Assembly (NCBI GenBank): GCA_021819135.1
Contig: JAKASE010000023.1
Location: 1 to 33,433 of the forward strand
From: Thermoplasmata archaeon
GTDB lineage: Archaea > Thermoplasmatota > Thermoplasmata > Lutacidiplasmatales > UBA184
Length of the DNA: 33,433 bases
Reading direction: 5' to 3'
Shown here: positions 12,795-20,705 of the stretch, one piece after another
Layout: every line of letters begins with the position of its first letter
Numbering within the stretch: the stretch's first letter is position 1
Notes under the pieces: generated by a model
Seen by the model: only the letters and a program-made list of their open reading frames with translations
Told to the model about the DNA's origin: nothing
Database searches by the model: none
Program-made: the position numbers and the translations under genes

Positions 12795-13031
12795 CTATTT
12801 CCGAACCGGGGGCAGCCTAAGGAGAATCGTCCCGCACTTCGCGCAGCGGGTCCCGGGCAGGTTCGCCGAGTAGGTCCCCCCGAACCCGGTCCCCACGATC
12901 ACCTCGAGGCCCCGGGGGCGGAAGCGGCTCGAAGAGGCCTCATGGCCCCAGTACAGTCCCGAGCCATTCGTCGTCGCCACGAACCCCTCCTCGAGGGGGC
13001 CCCCGCACACCGAGCAGCTCGATCCGGACAT
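12795..13031 (-). CDS. Small zinc-ribbon protein
   Basis: A 78-residue protein with two Cys-x-x-Cys knuckles: CSVCGG near the N-terminus and CAKCGT near the C-terminus, enough for one zinc-ribbon site. Between them is a WGHEAS stretch and a Gly-rich segment. The layout resembles small uncharacterised zinc-ribbon families of the DUF6487 type. The role is unknown. The ATG at 13031 puts the first knuckle at residues 6-9; an in-frame upstream start at 13103 would add 24 low-complexity residues. It lies just downstream of the terminator of the small-protein operon, so it probably has its own promoter. Confidence 0.68.
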   Translation of the reverse strand: MSGSSCSVCGGPLEEGFVATTNGSGLYWGHEASSSRFRPRGLEVIVGTGFGGTYSANLPGTRCAKCGTILLRLPPVRK

Positions 13032-13146
13032 GCCGCCAACCGGACGGCGGACCGGCCCCGGGTATGTCTGCTTTACGCTCGGGAGGACGCCGGGGTCGAC
13101 CATCGTCGACCGACCCTAGGGGTTGATCGCCTTTCGATCCAGGAAG

Positions 13147-13185
13147 AAAAAAAACGGCCCCCGGGCCGGGTGAGCCCCGGGGGCC
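13147..13185 (-). terminator. Strong hairpin plus T8 terminator
   Basis: On the minus strand, GGCCCCCGGG (13185-13176) pairs with CCCGGGGGCC (13165-13156) across a 10-nt loop and is followed by eight T (13154-13147). It looks like a bacterial intrinsic terminator and closes the three-gene small-protein operon 37 nt after its last stop codon. Confidence 0.8.
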
Positions 13186-13221
13186 TGGCCGCGCATCGTG
13201 ATGGATGAGCCGACTGAGGGA

Positions 13222-13425
13222 CTACCGCTCCTCCTCGAGGATCTTCAGGGACGACCGGTGGCCGCCCGACCGGAACGCGGGGGCGAGCCAGTCCGGCCAA
13301 CCGGCACTGACCGTGGACGAGGGCGGGGGAGGAGGGGCCACCGCGAGGAGCATCTGGCGCGCGGTAGGGGAGGAGAACCCACTCTCGAGCCCCGTGCAGG
13401 ATCGCGGGCGCTCGGCGCGGAGCAT
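13222..13425 (-). CDS. Small protein of unknown function, third gene of operon
   Basis: A 67-residue protein, not recognised. It has one cysteine, a Pro-run (APPPPPPSS-like) in the middle, a Trp-containing WPDWLAPAF segment and an acidic C-terminus. Support for reality: the ATG overlaps the upstream stop by one base (TGATG), GGAGG lies 7-8 nt before it, third positions are strongly G/C, and an intrinsic terminator follows. The WPDWL-x-P part loosely recalls VPWLRPP at the end of the first protein of the operon, so genes two and three together may correspond to the C-terminal half of gene one. Confidence 0.6.
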   Translation of the reverse strand: MLRAERPRSCTGLESGFSSPTARQMLLAVAPPPPPSSTVSAGWPDWLAPAFRSGGHRSSLKILEEER

Positions 13426-13571
13426 CAGTACCCCTCCGCGTGCTCGGTGCTCGCCCCGGCGTGGGTGCGACCGAACGCCAGGCGCTGCTCGGTGGTTGGA
13501 AGCCGAATCTCGAACTCGCGGATCCGAAGTCCTGCGGGTGCCCGAGGGTACCGTTCTCTGCTAGCGTCCAT
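13425..13571 (-). CDS. 48-residue protein with IREFE motif, second gene of operon
   Basis: A short open frame that standard length cut-offs would miss. Its ATG shares one base with the stop of the upstream gene (TAATG at 13573-13569), and a near-perfect Shine-Dalgarno GGGGGAGGTG ends 5 nt before it. Its own stop overlaps the next ATG (TGATG). The protein contains PAGLRIREFEIRLPT, closely matching PAGRKIREFETPIPT in the first protein of the operon. The C-terminal half is polar with two histidines. No family or function is recognised. The duplicated motif and strong translation signals make it a likely real gene. Confidence 0.6.
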   Translation of the reverse strand: MDASRERYPRAPAGLRIREFEIRLPTTEQRLAFGRTHAGASTEHAEGY

Positions 13572-13936
13572 TACAGCACCTCCCCCAGATCGGGCGGACG
13601 AAGCCAGGGGACCGTGAGGGCGCGCGGGCGGGCGAAGGGGTCGTCCGAGCGGAGGGCCGACGCCATCCCGAGCGCCGTCGGGATGGGAGTCTCGAACTCC
13701 CGGATCTTTCGACCCGCGGGGATGTGGGGGATCGGCGCCGGGAGATCCTCGAGCTCCAAGCGGTCAAGGACCGGGAAGCTTCCCAGGACCACCCGTGGGC
13801 ACTCTCGGGGGCCCCCGTGCTGGAGTGAGAACTGGGGTTCCGCATGGGTCGCACCGCAGGAAGGGCAGACATCCGCCTCGCCGAGCATCGTTCCGATGCC
13901 CCCGAGATAGGCCCCGCTCTCCCGCGTCCGGCTCAT
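13571..13936 (-). CDS. Small cysteine-motif protein with IREFE motif, first gene of operon
   Basis: A 121-residue protein of unknown function. The N-terminal part has CPSCGATH and a further Cys about 20 residues on (RECPRVV), a partial or degenerate zinc-ribbon that may use His as a fourth ligand. The middle has PAGRKIREFETPIPT, repeated in the next gene. The C-terminus ends in VPWLRPPDLG. The ATG at 13936 is about 30 nt after a TATA-like TTTAAGTA. It is divergent from the large winged-helix/P-loop regulator, sharing a 95-bp intergenic region with an 18-bp palindrome, which suggests that the regulator controls this operon. Confidence 0.72.
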   Translation of the reverse strand: MSRTRESGAYLGGIGTMLGEADVCPSCGATHAEPQFSLQHGGPRECPRVVLGSFPVLDRLELEDLPAPIPHIPAGRKIREFETPIPTALGMASALRSDDPFARPRALTVPWLRPPDLGEVL

Positions 13937-13962: not shown

Positions 13963-13970
13963 TACTTAAA
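13963..13970 (-). promoter_or_regulatory. TATA box of the small-protein operon
   Basis: TTTAAGTA on the minus strand, centred about 30 nt before the ATG at 13936. It lies 10 bp from the palindrome at 13980-13997, so a protein on that palindrome could affect both directions. Confidence 0.55.
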
Positions 13971-13979
13971 CGTCGGGAG

Positions 13980-13997
13980 TTATTTTGTACAAAATAA
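13980..13997. promoter_or_regulatory. 18-bp perfect palindrome in a divergent promoter
   Basis: TTATTTTGTACAAAATAA is perfectly self-complementary and AT-rich in otherwise GC-rich DNA. It lies between the small-protein operon and the STAND-type regulator. Its right half (AAAATAAAT) is also the best TATA candidate for the plus-strand gene, about 33-38 nt before the ATG at 14032. A dimeric winged-helix protein is the most likely ligand; the divergent regulator has such a domain. Confidence 0.75.
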
Positions 13998-14031
13998 ATC
14001 TAAGTAGTGGGGAGGCCGTTCCCCGTGTGAG

Positions 14032-16473
14032 ATGGGGGCTCAGACCTACCTGCCGGTCGAGATCCTCGACTATGTCGAGACGCACGCCCCTTCCGAAGGT
14101 GCCTCCTTCGGGATCAGCCAGCGGGAGCTCGCGAAATCCCTAGGATACCATCCCTGCTCGATGTCCCGACCCCTCGCCTCCCTGGTCGGGGAAGGCCTCC
14201 TGGTGGCCCGAAGGGCCCCCGTGCGGGATGGGATGCGGAAGCAGCTCACCTACCGGCTCACGGAGGTCGGTCGCCAGCGCCTACACCGGGAGACCCGCAA
14301 GGTGCCCCTTCTGTCGGGGGACATTCCTCCTCCTCCTCACCCGTTCCTCGGCCGTCGGGACGAGCTCGCGCAACTGGCCGACTTCTCCGGCCCCGGGGGT
14401 TCGGTGACGTTCGTCGATGGGGCGCCCGGGATGGGGAAGACCTCCCTCGTGAGCCGCCACCTGCGGCGGATCAAGCAGGGCCGGGTCCCGTTCTGGTTCA
14501 CCGTGCGTCCGGCGACCTCGCCGCGCCAGTTCGTCACCGCGCTTTCCCACGCGCTTGCGGAGATCGGCGCCTCCCAGCTGGCATACTACACCCAACTGCC
14601 CCGGCCCCCGGTCCCCCGGGAGGTGGCGGACCTGACGAACCGCGCGCTGCAGGACCGGGCCCTGGTGGCGGTGATCGATGATCTCCAGATGGCCTCGCCA
14701 GACGTCCGTCGGTTCCTGGAGGAGTTCATCACGTCGGTGGCCCCGGGCAGCGAGCATCTGTTCTTCCTGCTGAGTCAGGCACCGCCGCTCTTCGAGTCGA
14801 CGCGGGTAACGGTACACCGCCTCACCGTCGGCGGACTGGATCGGGCCGCGGCTCATGACCTGACCGACCGGAAGGGGGGGCTCGCCGACCGGTTCGAGTC
14901 GGTCTTTCAGGCCACCCTGGGGTCTCCGCTGCTGCTCCAGTTGGCCGTTTCGAACCCGGAACTCGACCCCGAGGCATCCACCCTGCCCCTCCGAGTCATC
15001 GAGCGGCTACCGGTCAACGAACTGCGCGCCCTGGTGCCCATCGCCCTCGCCAACGAACCGATGCCGATCTCCTTCGTGCTGGATTCCGGAGTGCTCACGA
15101 CCGCCCGGGTGGCCGAAATGACGAAGATGGGGATGCTCCAGCGGGGACTCCAGGGCCGAATCGAGGTCCTTCAGGTGGTTCGGCAGGCTCTGCTGTCGAA
15201 GATCGAGCCGCAGGACCAGCGGGACGCCCACCTTCAGCTCGCGGCTTACTACGGTTACAGTCACCGACCGGAGTCCTTGCGGGAACGGTTCTTGCATCTT
15301 GTCTCGGGCGAGGCTTGGAGGCTCGCTTCCCAACTGTTGGCTCGCCATCAGCGCACACTGCTCGGCTTGGGGTATTCTGAGCCGCTCCGGAACTCGCTGC
15401 GAAGGCTGTCCACCGCTCTTCCGAGGGGTGTCGCGAAGGCACGTGTCCTCGAAGGGGAGTCGACTCTCTTGCGCTACCACTCCGACTACTCCGAGGCGAT
15501 CATCACTCGCCGACGTGCTATCGTCGAGTCCAATGGGGATCCCAAGCTCGAGTGCGAGTCTCACCTTCACATCGTAGAGCTTTACCTCCGTCTACGGGAT
15601 ATAGAGGCGGGGGAGCGAGAGTTCGCGGAGGCGGAGCGAATCGGACCGGTCAGCCGGCGGCTCCAGGTCTTCTTTGGACTCACCAGCGCTCGCCTTCTCG
15701 AAGCGAAGGGAGACATCAACGCCGCTCGCGACGGGTTCCAAGAGACAATCAAACTCGCGCGCAGGCACCGTGTGACCGACCTAGGCCTTGACGCGATCGC
15801 GGCCTGGTCCAGGCTGGAGGAACTCCAGGCGGGTCCTGAGGTCGCGCTTCAGATTCTGGCTGATGCCATCCCTGAGGCTCAGTTGGGGGGGCGCCCGGAT
15901 ATCGTGTTCAACTTGAGGCTTCTCCGCGCCCGAGCACTCCTACGAGTCGGCCAAGGGGTCGAGGCCGAGTCCGAGATGCGGACGGTTCGTGAGCAGGCCG
16001 AGTCACTGGGATACCTGAACCAGCTCACGTACACCCTCGACGGTATGGCGGCGGCCGCAGCCCAGGCTGGCAGATTGACCGAGGCCATCGGGCACGCCCG
16101 ACACGCCATCGAACTCGCAGAGAAGCTCGGAAACGACCAAGTTCTCGGTCACGCGTTGGCCCTGCTCTGCTCGGATGAATTCCGTCAGGCTGACCAGGGC
16201 GGTGATCCGTCGCTGATCAAAGAGGCCATCGCCCATGGGGAGCGGAGCGTAACCGTTCTGGCGCGTCTACCGCCATCCGAACTACTGGTCTTCGCGCACT
16301 CGTACCTGGCAGAGGTCTACGCGTTCGTCAAGGACGGCGGTAGGGCGTCTGCGCACTACGACACGGCCATGCAGACTGCCAAGCAACTCGGATTGGGATG
16401 GATCGAGGAAACCCTGACCGGCGAGGTTGGCCCCAAGATCAGGGCCGCAGTCCAAGCCTCCAGCTCGTCGTGA
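14032..16473 (+). CDS. STAND-type regulator: winged helix, P-loop NTPase, TPR-like repeats
   Basis: An 813-residue signal-transduction ATPase. Domains in order: a winged helix (about 5-90; GISQRELAKSLGYHPCSMSRPLASL is the helix-turn-helix region), an NTPase domain with Walker A GAPGMGKTS (130-138) and Walker B VAVIDD (212-217), a helical linker (about 320-420), then TPR-like helical repeats to the end. This layout is like MalT/STAND regulators but with the DNA-binding domain at the N-terminus, as in many archaeal examples. The expected mode is ligand-driven oligomerisation coupled to ATP, with DNA binding through the winged helix. It is divergent from the small-protein operon and is probably autoregulated through the 18-bp palindrome. 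The ligand is unknown. The latter half of the gene has lower G/C third-position bias than its neighbours. Confidence 0.88.
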   Translation: MGAQTYLPVEILDYVETHAPSEGASFGISQRELAKSLGYHPCSMSRPLASLVGEGLLVARRAPVRDGMRKQLTYRLTEVGRQRLHRETRKVPLLSGDIPPPPHPFLGRRDELAQLADFSGPGGSVTFVDGAPGMGKTSLVSRHLRRIKQGRVPFWFTVRPATSPRQFVTALSHALAEIGASQLAYYTQLPRPPVPREVADLTNRALQDRALVAVIDDLQMASPDVRRFLEEFITSVAPGSEHLFFLLSQAPPLFESTRVTVHRLTVGGLDRAAAHDLTDRKGGLADRFESVFQATLGSPLLLQLAVSNPELDPEASTLPLRVIERLPVNELRALVPIALANEPMPISFVLDSGVLTTARVAEMTKMGMLQRGLQGRIEVLQVVRQALLSKIEPQDQRDAHLQLAAYYGYSHRPESLRERFLHLVSGEAWRLASQLLARHQRTLLGLGYSEPLRNSLRRLSTALPRGVAKARVLEGESTLLRYHSDYSEAIITRRRAIVESNGDPKLECESHLHIVELYLRLRDIEAGEREFAEAERIGPVSRRLQVFFGLTSARLLEAKGDINAARDGFQETIKLARRHRVTDLGLDAIAAWSRLEELQAGPEVALQILADAIPEAQLGGRPDIVFNLRLLRARALLRVGQGVEAESEMRTVREQAESLGYLNQLTYTLDGMAAAAAQAGRLTEAIGHARHAIELAEKLGNDQVLGHALALLCSDEFRQADQGGDPSLIKEAIAHGERSVTVLARLPPSELLVFAHSYLAEVYAFVKDGGRASAHYDTAMQTAKQLGLGWIEETLTGEVGPKIRAAVQASSSS

Positions 16474-16525: not shown

Positions 16526-17197
16526 AATAGGCTCAGAAGAGTTACAGCTGTTCGCGCGGGACTGCCGGGAGCTGAGGCATGTACATGATCGCAACCCACC
16601 TCCGAGCGGCATCCCGATTTTTCCCCTATTTAATCCGCCGGTCGAGCATCGACACGGGACGGGTCGCTATACAACCCGCATATGTGCGTGCGCATGCGTA
16701 CAAAACTCAGCTTTCTGTACGGCGCCGGATCACCGAGGTTGGGAGGTTTCTCCGGCGGAGAACGGGGGAACAGCACACGGTCTGGCGGACGACGGACCCG
16801 CTCTGCAACGTCCCATCACGGAACGTCCTCGCGAGCTACCCGCCGCCTTGCTGTGGCTCAGGACCTCCCAGAACCCCGGCTCGCCGACCCGGACGAACTT
16901 GCCCCATCGGCATCACCGATCGAGGTTATAGACGTAGCGACACGGCGCGGCGTTGTTCCCCTACCGGTCCATCCTTCGCACGGGTCCGAGCCTCAAGCGG
17001 AGCCCATGTCCGGTGTGAAAAGGGTCGGCGTAGCTCGGGGTACGCAGATTGCGCCACGTCCCGGCAACGGGTTGACCGGCCGGACGCGATGGTCCGTGGC
17101 CCCATCGAGCGAGTCGGCCTTCCCAAAGTGGCGGGCGATCCGAGCCGGCGAGCTCGTAGCGCTGAGACTCGGGTGATCGGAGATGTCGGCGCAACGA
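16526..17197. other. Noncoding stretch with promoter-like elements
   Basis: 672 bases without a convincing gene. TATA-like CTATTTAATC (16627-16636) and CTATACAAC (about 16668) are followed by GCATATGTGCG and a near-palindromic GTGCGCATGCGTAC (about 16688-16702). A perfect hairpin GTCGA-GCA-TCGAC lies at 16641-16653. A 164-codon frame from 16682 follows these elements, but its codon use is much less biased than that of the real genes and no domain is recognised. It may be a decayed gene or a noncoding transcript. Confidence 0.45.
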
Positions 17198-18286: not shown

Positions 18287-18331
18287 CTGATAAGCGCACG
18301 TCGTACGGATGCCCCTCGGCAATCCATTAAA
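18287..18331. promoter_or_regulatory. Divergent promoter pair
   Basis: On the minus strand GCTTATCAG (18295-18287) lies about 27 nt before the GTG of deoxyhypusine synthase. On the plus strand ATTAAAT (18325-18331) is about 38 nt before the GTG of the ATPase, leaving room for a short leader that includes its GGAGGT ribosome-binding site (18354-18359). Confidence 0.5.
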
Positions 18332-18365
18332 TCCTCCGGGGAGAGATTCTCCGCGGAGGTTCCGG

Positions 18366-20705
18366 GTGCCTACACTTCCCTCACCGGTCCTCCGCGCGAT
18401 CGAAGGTCTCGCGGAAGGCTCCGGTCGTACCGTGGCGATCGCCGGCCCGCCGATGAGCGGGAAGTCCGCCCTCCTCGAGGAGCTGCGCGGCCTCCTGCGA
18501 GCCCGCGGGGCCCGCCTGGTCGAGCTCCGCGGGAGCTACCGGAGCCGGTCGGTCCCCTACGGGGCGCTCGATGGTCTGCGACAGGGCACGGGGGGCGCTC
18601 TGATGGCGCCGGATGGGGAGGAGCTGGCGGCGGAGGAGGAGGGAATATCGGCCGGCCCGATCCCCGCGATCCCGTACCTCACCGAGCGACTGCCGCGCAG
18701 TCGTCGGAGCCGGGCCGAGCGGGGTCGCTCCTCCTTGATGGGTCAGCCCGTGCGCGGACGATCGGCGAATGAGGGGGACCCGGACACCTACTGGAACGAG
18801 ATCGTGCCCGAGATGCGGGGACCGGGAGGGCACCCGGTCGCGATCGTCATCGATGATGGGGCCCTCTTCGACACGGAAAGCCGGGACTTCATCGTCTCGC
18901 TCTCGAAGCGTTCCCGTCTGCGACCGTTGCTCATCGTCGCGGCGCTCGACACCTCCGTGCCGGGGTTCATGACCTGGGAGGAAGCGTTCCTCGGTCGCGG
19001 GGACGTCGACTGGGTCCGGATCACGGAGGCGAGTCCCGACCCCCGGGAGGCGCACCGGCTGAAGGCGATCTTCGACGACCTGCCCGCGGTCTCCCAGCGC
19101 GTGGCCGGTTACGTCTCGCTCCTCGGGGGGACCGCGGGGGAGGTCGTGCTCTCCCGGGTCTCCCGCCTCACGTTCCCGCAGCTCGCGGAGGCGATCCTGC
19201 CGGCGGCCGGCGCCGGGCTCATCAAGGTCCTCGAGGGCAAGGTCTCGATCCCGCACCAGGCCTGGATCCCGCTGGCCGCCGAGATGCTCTCGGACAAGGT
19301 GCGGCGCGAGATGCACCTCGACATCGCGAACGCCCTGTCGGCGCTCTCGCCGGAGCCGATCCTTCCCCGGCGGATCGAGGTCGCCCGCCACTACCTCGCA
19401 TGGTTCCCGGGACCGATGGCGCTCCGTCGGCTCCTCGAAGCCGCGGAGCTCTCCCTCCAGCTCGCCGCCTACGACTCGGCGGAGGAGCTCCTCGCGGAGG
19501 CGATCGGCTGCCTCCCCTCGCTCCCTCCGGCCGAACGGGACGCGATCGAACCGGAGCTCCGGTTCCTCCATGCCCGGGCGCTCTTCTGCGCCGGCCGGGT
19601 CTCGGAGGGAGAGTCCGAGGTCGCCGAAGGCCTCGACGACGCGCTCCGGGCGAAGATCTCCGCCGAGACCGTGACGGAGTGGGTCGAGCCGCTCCTGCTC
19701 ACGATGCGCGCCGTCGGGCCCCGACCCTCGCTCGCGACCACCCTCCTCGAGATGATCGAGCGGTGCCACGACGCCGAGCTGGTCGAGGTCGAGGTCCTGT
19801 TCGAGGCGCTGGTCGCCGAGTTCCACTACGAGCGCAACTGGCCCGAGAAGGCCCGTGCGGAGTCGCACCGGGCCGCCCTGCTCGCGCGGAAGCTTCCCGA
19901 GGGCCACTTGCAGGCGCTCTCCCTGCTCGCCGTCGGACTGTCCCGGATCGGCGGGACGGAGGAGGAGCAGGAGCTCGCCGAGCGGTTCCTGCGGGCCGCG
20001 CGCCTCCTGCTGGCGAAGGCCCGTCGATGGGAGCTTGACGCGCTCGCCGAGGACCTCGAGGCCCGGCTCCTCGAGTCCCGGGGGGACTTCCGGCGTGCCC
20101 GAGAGCTGCGCGAGCGCAGCATCTCGGTGCTGCAGCGGATGCGCCTCCATTCGCTCGAGCTCAACCACCAGCTCGGGGTCGCGGAGCTCCTGCTCGACCA
20201 CGGGATCCCGAAGGGGGTCGAGGCGGCGCTGGAGCGCGCGCGCGCGATCACCGACACCCTGCATCTCCTGCCGCCCGCACCGGGGCTCCTCCGCCTCTGG
20301 CTGCTCGAGGGCCGCTACGCCGCGGTCAACGAGCTCGTGGACGCCGCCCGGGACCGCTGGGAGGCGATGGCCGATGCGGCCGGGCCCACCGCGATCCCGC
20401 GCCTGAAGGTCGAGGCCGTGGTGCGGCTCGCCCTTCTCGAGTATGGCCGTCGTCCGGAGCGGGCGGCGGAGCTCGTCGCCCAGCTCTCCCAGCCGGACCT
20501 CTCGGCCGCGATCCCGCGGACCTGGCGGTCCTGGATCCCCAACCTCGAACGCCTCGCGCCCGACAGCGACCGGGGCGGGGGCCCGCTCCCGCCGCCGTCG
20601 GCGCCGCCTCCCCCTCCCCCGCGGGCCGCAGCCGCCTCACCCGAGCGACGGGAACGCTCCCGGCGCGAGACCGTACAGGATCGTCAAGGCTCCCACGAGC
20701 GTTAG
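18366..20705 (+). CDS. Large P-loop ATPase with helical (TPR-like) repeats
   Basis: A 779-residue protein. Walker A is GPPMSGKS (27-34) and Walker B VIDD (161-164), then a sensor-like strand (LLIVAALD), a helical middle, and long alpha-helical repeats rich in Leu, Glu and Ala that resemble TPRs to about residue 730. The end is a Gly/Pro-rich and charged tail. Unlike the regulator at 14 kb it has no N-terminal DNA-binding domain, and it has an insertion rich in Arg/Ser and Glu between the P-loop and Walker B. It is a STAND/MalT-like ATPase of unknown signal. The GTG at 18366 is chosen because GGAGGT lies 6 nt upstream; an ATG at 18309 precedes the TATA-like box. The last 69 bp overlap the convergent GDT1-like gene. 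Confidence 0.83.
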   Translation: MPTLPSPVLRAIEGLAEGSGRTVAIAGPPMSGKSALLEELRGLLRARGARLVELRGSYRSRSVPYGALDGLRQGTGGALMAPDGEELAAEEEGISAGPIPAIPYLTERLPRSRRSRAERGRSSLMGQPVRGRSANEGDPDTYWNEIVPEMRGPGGHPVAIVIDDGALFDTESRDFIVSLSKRSRLRPLLIVAALDTSVPGFMTWEEAFLGRGDVDWVRITEASPDPREAHRLKAIFDDLPAVSQRVAGYVSLLGGTAGEVVLSRVSRLTFPQLAEAILPAAGAGLIKVLEGKVSIPHQAWIPLAAEMLSDKVRREMHLDIANALSALSPEPILPRRIEVARHYLAWFPGPMALRRLLEAAELSLQLAAYDSAEELLAEAIGCLPSLPPAERDAIEPELRFLHARALFCAGRVSEGESEVAEGLDDALRAKISAETVTEWVEPLLLTMRAVGPRPSLATTLLEMIERCHDAELVEVEVLFEALVAEFHYERNWPEKARAESHRAALLARKLPEGHLQALSLLAVGLSRIGGTEEEQELAERFLRAARLLLAKARRWELDALAEDLEARLLESRGDFRRARELRERSISVLQRMRLHSLELNHQLGVAELLLDHGIPKGVEAALERARAITDTLHLLPPAPGLLRLWLLEGRYAAVNELVDAARDRWEAMADAAGPTAIPRLKVEAVVRLALLEYGRRPERAAELVAQLSQPDLSAAIPRTWRSWIPNLERLAPDSDRGGGPLPPPSAPPPPPPRAAAASPERRERSRRETVQDRQGSHER

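Follow-up and report, generated by a model that had tools for sequence, protein, structure and literature searches.

Organization of the Locus

The window analyzed here is a stretch of 33,433 nucleotides from a Thermoplasmata archaeon (contig JAKASE010000023.1, positions 1 to 33,433; assembly GCA_021819135.1). Its minus strand contains three overlapping small open reading frames (ORFs), A (121 codons), B (48 codons), and C (67 codons), that end in a hairpin followed by a run of eight T (Table 1). The joints between them are the one-base overlaps TAATG and TGATG, Shine-Dalgarno (SD) sites precede B (GGGGGAGGTG) and C (GGAGGGG), and the 3' end of the operon is composed of GGCCCCCGGG-loop-CCCGGGGGCC and then T8. 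The pattern PAG-x-x-IREFE-x-x-x-PT is common to A, where it reads PAGRKIREFETPIPT, and B, where it reads PAGLRIREFEIRLPT, and A carries a CPSCG knuckle. An earlier note had described the coupled ORFs, their SD sites, the hairpin, and the duplicated motif from the DNA letters, and all of these are present as claimed. The bulk of what the locus means lies beyond that note, in a divergent regulator, a palindrome, the specificity of the hairpin, and a micropeptide gene, referred to here as M.

Table 1. Coordinates of the features of the module and of its flanking gene D in the window.
Feature	Positions	Strand	Description
Neighbour D (DUF6487-like)	12795..13031 (wider region 12795-13103)	-	Flanking gene; two CxxC pairs; Pfam E 6.4e-6
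3' element	13145..13201	-	TCACGATG, covarying hairpin, and T-run; covariance model R1
Gene C	13222..13425	-	67 aa; conserved, coupled; WPxWLxP invariant; unrelated to A (profile comparison)
Gene B	13425..13571	-	48 aa; partial duplicate of the 3' half of A; second IREFE copy; 3/55 loci
Gene A	13571..13936	-	121 aa; conserved N-terminus ESGAYLGGIGTML; CPSCG zinc-binding-like motif; IREFE helix segment at residues 74-82; conserved C-terminus PWLxPPDLGEVL
TATA-like box of A	13963..13970	-	TTTAAGTA; 14 nt from the palindrome core
Palindrome	13980..13997	.	TTATTTTGTACAAAATAA; perfect, 18 bp, between the divergent promoters
TATA-like box of regulator	14000..14006	+	CTAAGTA; adjoins the palindrome
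Regulator	14032..16473	+	813 aa; N-terminal HTH, AAA_16/STAND NTPase, TPR repeats; divergent from A
Micropeptide gene M	16542..16586	-	14 codons, MYMPQLPAVPREQL; convergent with the regulator; SD GGAGGTG at ~16597-16603; TATA-like TTAAATA at ~16627-16633

Conservation and Coupling of Genes A and C

A single-sequence search finds A in 49 of the 78 genomes of the genus, and profile searches across the 106 genomes of the order find A in 57 and C in 50, all within one family. Class-wide, A was matched in 54 of 400 genomes, the sole one outside the family being a weak match inside an 838-codon frame. Two of the loci, L040 and L048, belong to AcS1-45 and AcS5-107, which are assigned to Ca. Lutacidiplasmatales in Table 1 of PMC9287336, an assignment that also places the genus of the window. 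Residues M1, G13, I14, M17, C24, and C27 of A are invariant and G28 is nearly so (47 rows); in C, W43, P44, W46, L47, and P49 are invariant (43 rows). By eye, the same alignment of A contains no consistent second close Cys/His pair, and the IREFE motif, whose conservation the earlier note had proposed as a profile check, is not universal among members of A. The dN/dS ratio is 0.11–0.58 for A (14 pairs) and 0.16–0.71 for C (13 pairs).

Overlaps of 1 or 4 bases join A to the next gene in 51 of 55 loci, and no locus was seen in which A, B, or C are fused, which speaks against a local frameshift. An SD-like word of at least 4 nt precedes the next gene in 54 of 54 loci and A in 12 of 55, with G104b left out of the overlap and SD counts as a near-copy. 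The A gene of the window has no strong SD, and its mRNA is likely leaderless or short-leader, given a TATA-like box very near its start. Conservation and coupling together indicate that A and C are real proteins, and the idea of an operon of small proteins without a known family holds for these two on the strength of conservation, dN/dS, coupling, and the family searches; the unit that is kept is A–C instead of the proposed three-gene order, B occurring in 3 of 55 loci.

Searches of Pfam up to E 1 return no match for A, B, or C of the window, and across members one of 47 A proteins has a weak zf-Tbcl_FmdE match and none of 43 C proteins has any. NCBIfam gives only E 0.17 for A, and PHROGs gives no match for A–C. 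A PDB profile search with A has a best E of 0.076 and includes ArnA at 0.73, matches that were taken as chance. AlphaFold2 models of A and C alone are mostly unstructured and of low confidence (pLDDT 61.6 each), such confidence as there is in A falling mainly on the short helix of the IREFE segment and on the C-terminus, and they provide no fold backing for the idea, developed below, that A and C are protein partners.

Gene B and Other Copies of A

C is found in 54 of 55 loci, directly after A in 47, with B between them in three, and with A', a second knuckle-bearing copy of A, or its remains between them in four; in G097 it was not found by the script, and the sequence there holds masked bases. 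The clade of L063, L064, L065, and L066 has an extra ORF with a CPxC-like knuckle between A and C.

The alternative put forward in the earlier note was a split second copy of the C-terminal half of A, made up of genes two and three. The proposal fits B. The score of the window's B against its A exceeds 1000 of 1000 protein shuffles and 1000 of 1000 codon shuffles, its own A ranking third by protein and eighth by DNA. In G043 the whole of B can be aligned to the 3' half of the A from the same genome, and this A is the top-ranking one of 56 A genes; for the B of G036 the own A ranks 14th with a score reached by 6 of 1000 protein and 32 of 1000 codon shuffles. The dN/dS ratio of B against A is near saturation and little informative. 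For C, a profile comparison with A gives a probability of 0.4%, that is, no relation, and since C forms a conserved family of its own the split-copy reading is rejected for it.

These comparisons indicate that B arose by partial duplication of A, from its 3' half. The three B carriers are scattered on the regulator tree (47 rows, quick method), where well-supported branches require three changes, so that B was either gained several times or gained once and repeatedly lost; a first tree included G057, whose branch was very long and whose composition was odd, and the second tree omits it. Counting B and A' together, a copy of part or all of A has ended up between A and C at least twice. B may represent an extra copy of a helical binding motif, which fits the model confidence at A residues 74–82.

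Distribution, Linkage, and Loss of the Module

Across the 106 genomes of the order, A and the regulator occur together in 50, A alone in seven, the regulator alone in three, and neither in 46. Six of the seven genomes with A alone have it about 500 bp or less from a contig end, and the other, G033, gives a weak match with an in-frame stop; the three with the regulator alone contain C-terminal fragments, two of which start at the first base of a contig and one of which ends nine bases before a contig end. Among the 38 family genomes that are at least 90% complete, 18 have both, three have A only (all at contig ends), and 17 have neither, and in the whole family neither is found in 43 of 103 genomes. 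The genomes are mostly draft assemblies, the named ones being MAGs, and the near-identical contigs of G013 and G081, and of G063a and G104b, are counted separately in several of the tallies given here, so that the spread over genera is safely three (g1, g6, and g7), not four. The near-identity of the G013 and G081 contigs in A and the regulator, despite the assignment of the two genomes to different genera, suggests mis-binning or recent transfer. G063 contains two different modules on two contigs, one of which is identical, where compared, to a G104 contig, and is probably a mixed bin (L043, L044, and L050).

The flanking gene D is found in 69 of the 106 genomes, including 12 of the 43 family genomes without A and the regulator, and since it persists there it is placed outside the module. 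Ten of these 12 loci were examined. Eight of the ten contain both DHS and D, and tblastn (E 1e-3) detects neither A nor C nor the regulator in the intervening DNA; in the remaining two of the ten the stretch ends too early. The DHS–D gaps in module-less loci are about 0.2–1.8 kb, the 1.8-kb one (L107) containing another ORF of 526 codons. Module loci that are long enough show the order DHS, regulator, A–C, D, TldE, and TldD, L046 and L047 having additional DNA between D and TldE. The pattern indicates that the regulator, A, C, the palindrome, and the hairpin are gained and lost together while the flanking genes stay, a strong linkage, and that A–C is one arm of a module confined to one acid-soil archaeal family, Ca. 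Lutacidiplasmatales.

This joint presence and absence bears on a view close to that of the earlier note, in which A, B, and C would form a structural complex of their own and the adjoining regulator would be incidental. Overlapping genes would provide matched synthesis of such a complex, and both A and C contain conserved Trp-Pro motifs, but the rarity of B and the fact that A–C come and go with the regulator and the palindrome while the neighbours stay make this account improbable.

The Divergent STAND Regulator and the Adjoining Palindrome

The regulator starts about 95 bp from A, a spacing that is nearly constant across loci, and is present in a single copy in the window's genome at E 1e-5. 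A Pfam scan places HTH_IclR and MarR_2 within residues 10–63, AAA_16 at 104–245, and TPR_12 at 630–698, AAA_16 scoring above its Pfam cut-off and the HTH and TPR_12 matches below theirs. The sequences GAPGMGKTS and VAVIDD are visible in the protein, and we take them to be Walker-type motifs. In a PDB sequence search at E 0.01, the only match is PH0952 of Pyrococcus horikoshii (6mfv; E 3.8e-7, residues 100–535), a match that spans the NTPase and arm region but neither the HTH nor the whole of the TPR part. PH0952 has been characterized as a predicted transcription factor that combines an ArsR-like domain at its N-terminus with a NOD and a TPR sensor and that occupies a position between MalT and APAF1 (PMC6468293). 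The match over the nucleotide-binding core, together with the shared order of N-terminal DNA-binding domain, AAA/NOD, and C-terminal TPR, places the regulator itself with the PH0952-like STAND proteins, while the module as a whole is assigned to none of the related systems compared below. In three genomes the regulator match carries one in-frame TGA (G003:C9:279527-281965, G041:C14:7449-9872, and G057:C50:10061-12208), which could reflect a pseudogene, recoding, or a sequencing error.

The palindrome TTATTTTGTACAAAATAA is the sole site in the window's genome at up to two mismatches, and the 10-mer core TTTGTACAAA is likewise unique. The core and A occur together in 56 of 58 module loci, the two dropped from the count (L018 and L067) being truncated by contig ends. 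From the 9-nt core to the start of the TATA-like box the distance is 14 nt in 51 loci, 15 nt in four, and 14 nt by eye in one more. At up to two mismatches the palindrome is matched in 56 of the 106 genomes of the order, 50 of which are A-positive; the others are G015, G090, G102, and three other-family genomes with background matches. Seven A-positive genomes have no such match, namely G025 and G040 (contig ends), G033 (spurious A), and G005, G042, G075, and G077, in which the copies have drifted further. A perfect palindrome of at least 10 bp is absent in five of 47 sequences, one of them truncated by a contig end, and the outer part drifts. A second exact core is found elsewhere in G001 and G013, and an exact core without a detected module in G080 and G085.

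On this evidence, the regulator is likely to bind the palindrome as its putative operator. The position of the palindrome 14 nt upstream of the TATA-like box of A suggests activation of A–C, and its near contact with the TATA-like box of the regulator suggests self-limitation; the combined claim, that the regulator activates A–C and limits itself, is one we hold with modest preference.

STAND NTPases also serve in immunity (PMC10427625), which raises the possibility of an immune or conflict module whose STAND protein would be an NLR-like sensor of invaders or stress and whose effectors or toxin-antitoxin-like parts would be A, C, and the micropeptide. The patchy presence of the module agrees with such a role, but up to E 0.01 PADLOC models match none of A, B, C, D, and the regulator, the slot between DHS and D-TldE-TldD is constant in loci long enough to see it, and an N-terminal HTH with a private palindrome suits transcription control; the immune explanation has little probability.

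The 3' Hairpin Element

The element downstream of C consists of TCACGATG, a 14-pair stem, a loop containing CCCGG, and often a T-run. On the 5' side TCACGATG is invariant or nearly so, and the CCCGG loop is conserved. Compensatory changes occur in 11 of the 14 stem pairs among 50 aligned loci, 95.6% of cells pair (46 distinct rows), none of 500 shuffles reaches the observed values, and slid versions drop sharply. The alignment (A4) was made by MAFFT, the structure being derived from the same alignment, and omits one identical row and three of the 54 loci, those without the collecting pattern (G026, G061, and G053). The covariance model finds the element in 56 of the 106 genomes, comprising 55 of the 57 A-positive genomes and G054, which has a regulator fragment; because most of the sequences were in the model these matches are mostly by construction, and the new information lies in the absence of the element elsewhere. 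The two A-positive genomes without a match are G033, with its spurious A, and G061, which gives a weak match in another search. The element lies at one locus per module-bearing genome, save for three weak matches (G100:C3, G025:C2, and G081:C96). Rfam gives nothing at gathering level in the window, the two matches near the operon lying far below gathering scores, and no matching family. In L003 and L033 (G013 and G081) the hairpin is triplicated in tandem with a 49-bp period.

A plain intrinsic terminator does not account for a conserved TCACGATG and CCCGG loop, for an element at one locus per genome, or for L064, where the element overlaps the end of C without a T-run, and these features indicate that the hairpin is more than that. 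RNA-level feedback would be one way to explain them, with the zinc-knuckle-like A, the Arg-rich C, or both binding the TCACGATG hairpin of their own mRNA and setting its stability or translation, and with the regulator only switching the operon on. The covariation of the hairpin, its tracking of the module, its conserved parts, and its retention in L064 are what such feedback would predict, though family searches detect no RNA-binding domain in A or C, the other hairpin matches of the A' clade are weak, and many copies are followed by a T-run as in a terminator, even if a run of four T is missing from the 130 nt that follow C in 10 of 54 loci. We consider RNA-level feedback unlikely.

The Micropeptide Gene

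M came to light at the 3' end of the regulator, a region chosen as a control for general conservation of terminators. Its consensus is MYLPxVPPxPREQL, and it is present in 46 of the 47 module loci that include the regulator 3' flank, 42 being found by a relaxed scan and four (G070, G049, G014, and G057) by a looser one; the sole locus without it is G068, where only a 300-bp contig end is available. The relaxed scan finds M in none of 10 module-less loci and gives one match in the whole window, which is M itself. Of the copies, 29 have exactly 14 codons; all of these share P4 and P7, 28 have P10, 28 have Q13, 28 have E or D at position 12, and 27 have Y, F, or W at position 2. The scan required three prolines and an E/D/A-Q/E/H end, so these traits are partly built in, but it did not prescribe where the prolines stand, an aromatic residue 2, or the codon pattern. 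All four copies recovered without requiring that end begin with M[YF][LMV]P, and those of G049 and G014 are without the usual C-terminus. Variability by codon position is 0.209, 0.132, and 0.415 (28 distinct ORFs), a pattern that points to selection on the peptide.

This pattern also weighs on whether M is a ligand at all. The micropeptide ORF could instead be a separate small regulator, or its RNA could act against the 3' end of the regulator, since M converges on the regulator from its own TATA-like box and SD. Convergent transcripts can interfere with each other. Selection on the peptide argues against an effect of the RNA, and a role other than ligand is given a low probability. The alternative that we pursue, that the micropeptide is the TPR ligand of the regulator, is itself a tentative assignment. 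The C-terminus of A is closer in sequence to M than are most windows of A (mean rank fraction of 0.119 over 39 loci), a likeness between related, Pro-rich sequences that is suggestive as a weak lead.

Between M and DHS, at 16861-16901 on the minus strand of the window, lies a stretch of about 40 bp that is 80–90% identical in several relatives and has a shorter match in two module-less loci. A tRNA was considered for it; ARAGORN finds none, and Rfam finds no family either.

A Model for the Module

Taken together, the preferred reading is of a self-contained regulatory module, with A-(B)-C as its output operon, comprising the STAND regulator, the palindrome, A–C, the hairpin, and the micropeptide, a reading to which we give reasonable but not strong credence from sequence comparison. 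The ADP-bound regulator would be locked until a ligand at its TPR sensor, for which the micropeptide is the foremost candidate, opens it and allows multimerization. The HTH would then bind the palindrome, and the bound regulator would activate A–C and limit its own transcription. The mRNA of A would be translated as a leaderless or short-leader message and C would be made by translational coupling, so that the two proteins, both mostly unfolded and carrying motifs, would accumulate in matched amounts. B would only supply a second copy of the IREFE helix of A. A and C would be the output of the module and perhaps also feedback partners of the regulator, a dual assignment whose chances we regard as even.

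A broader reading is more speculative and, on balance, doubtful. It holds that the module is a peptide-signalling switch that evolved apart from RRNPP, in which a 14-residue micropeptide (a proline every three residues at P4, P7, and P10, ending in E/D-Q-L-COOH) would be read by the TPR sensor of a STAND protein related to APAF1 and MalT, which would act through a single private operator on an operon of disordered motif proteins whose C-termini mimic the peptide and so close the loop, with the mRNA structure as a further control point. Should the module work as proposed, conserved genes as short as 14 and 67 codons, below the usual length limits, would be shown to contribute to regulation in archaea, and the pairing of a TPR regulator with an adjacent peptide gene would seem to have arisen more than once. 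The regulator here comes with what may be all of its partners, kept together in one family: a single operator, two small proteins, an RNA element, and a peptide of 14 residues. A few small clones and a synthetic peptide would thus suffice for direct tests of ligand, operator, and output.

Related Regulatory Systems

The closest known protein, PH0952, shares with the regulator an N-terminal DNA-binding domain, a NOD, and a TPR sensor, and the portions of its description available to us mention no dedicated small-protein operon, operator, or micropeptide (PMC6468293). MalT of Escherichia coli is a STAND transcription regulator with a TPR sensor that is held by inhibitory proteins including MalY and MalK (PMC6468293; PMC10427625). 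It resembles the module as a STAND and TPR regulator with protein partners, though the partners here would be motif proteins of 67–121 aa. In MalT the HTH is C-terminal, the inducer is a sugar, and the inhibitors, Aes being a further one, are large and folded.

RopB of Firmicutes is a TPR-domain regulator that works with a leaderless, secreted peptide of 8 aa from a neighbouring ORF and has mostly divergent targets (PMC10518010). The module is alike in placing a TPR regulator beside a very short leaderless peptide gene and putative divergent target genes; it differs in that the peptide is 13–16 aa, Pro-rich, convergent with the regulator, and a putative ligand. RopB-like receptors are not known to contain a STAND NTPase. 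No RRNPP (Rgg/RopB-like) family is present among the 17 Pfam rows of the regulator, whose AAA_16/STAND, HTH, TPR, and PH0952 matches set it apart. By analogy, the module would resemble RopB/leaderless-peptide and MalT-type systems in its working but belongs to neither.

Transcription of a neighbour requires Brz of Halobacterium, a small CPxCG zinc-finger protein encoded in a regulator cluster (PMC2253796). In small zinc-finger proteins of this type, a CPxCG-like pattern is paired with a second Cys/His pair 7–40 residues away. A is likewise a small archaeal CPxCG-motif protein encoded in a regulator cluster, though its length is greater, its gene runs divergently from that of a STAND regulator, and a consistent second close Cys/His pair is not evident by eye. 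A search of the literature on STAND/PH0952, small CPxCG proteins, RRNPP, and archaeal peptides and micropeptides, mostly outside subscription journals, gave no description of the module among the matches listed.

Neighbouring Genes

A second large gene in the window lies beside DHS at 18309-20705 on the plus strand and was read as STAND-like (AAA/TPR). A relative of this gene occurs in L113, a locus that does not have the module; other module-less loci, L104 among them, do not contain it. On the other flank, D keeps NGSGLxW and other invariant residues (25 rows), and TldE adjoins D in eight of the ten module-less loci.
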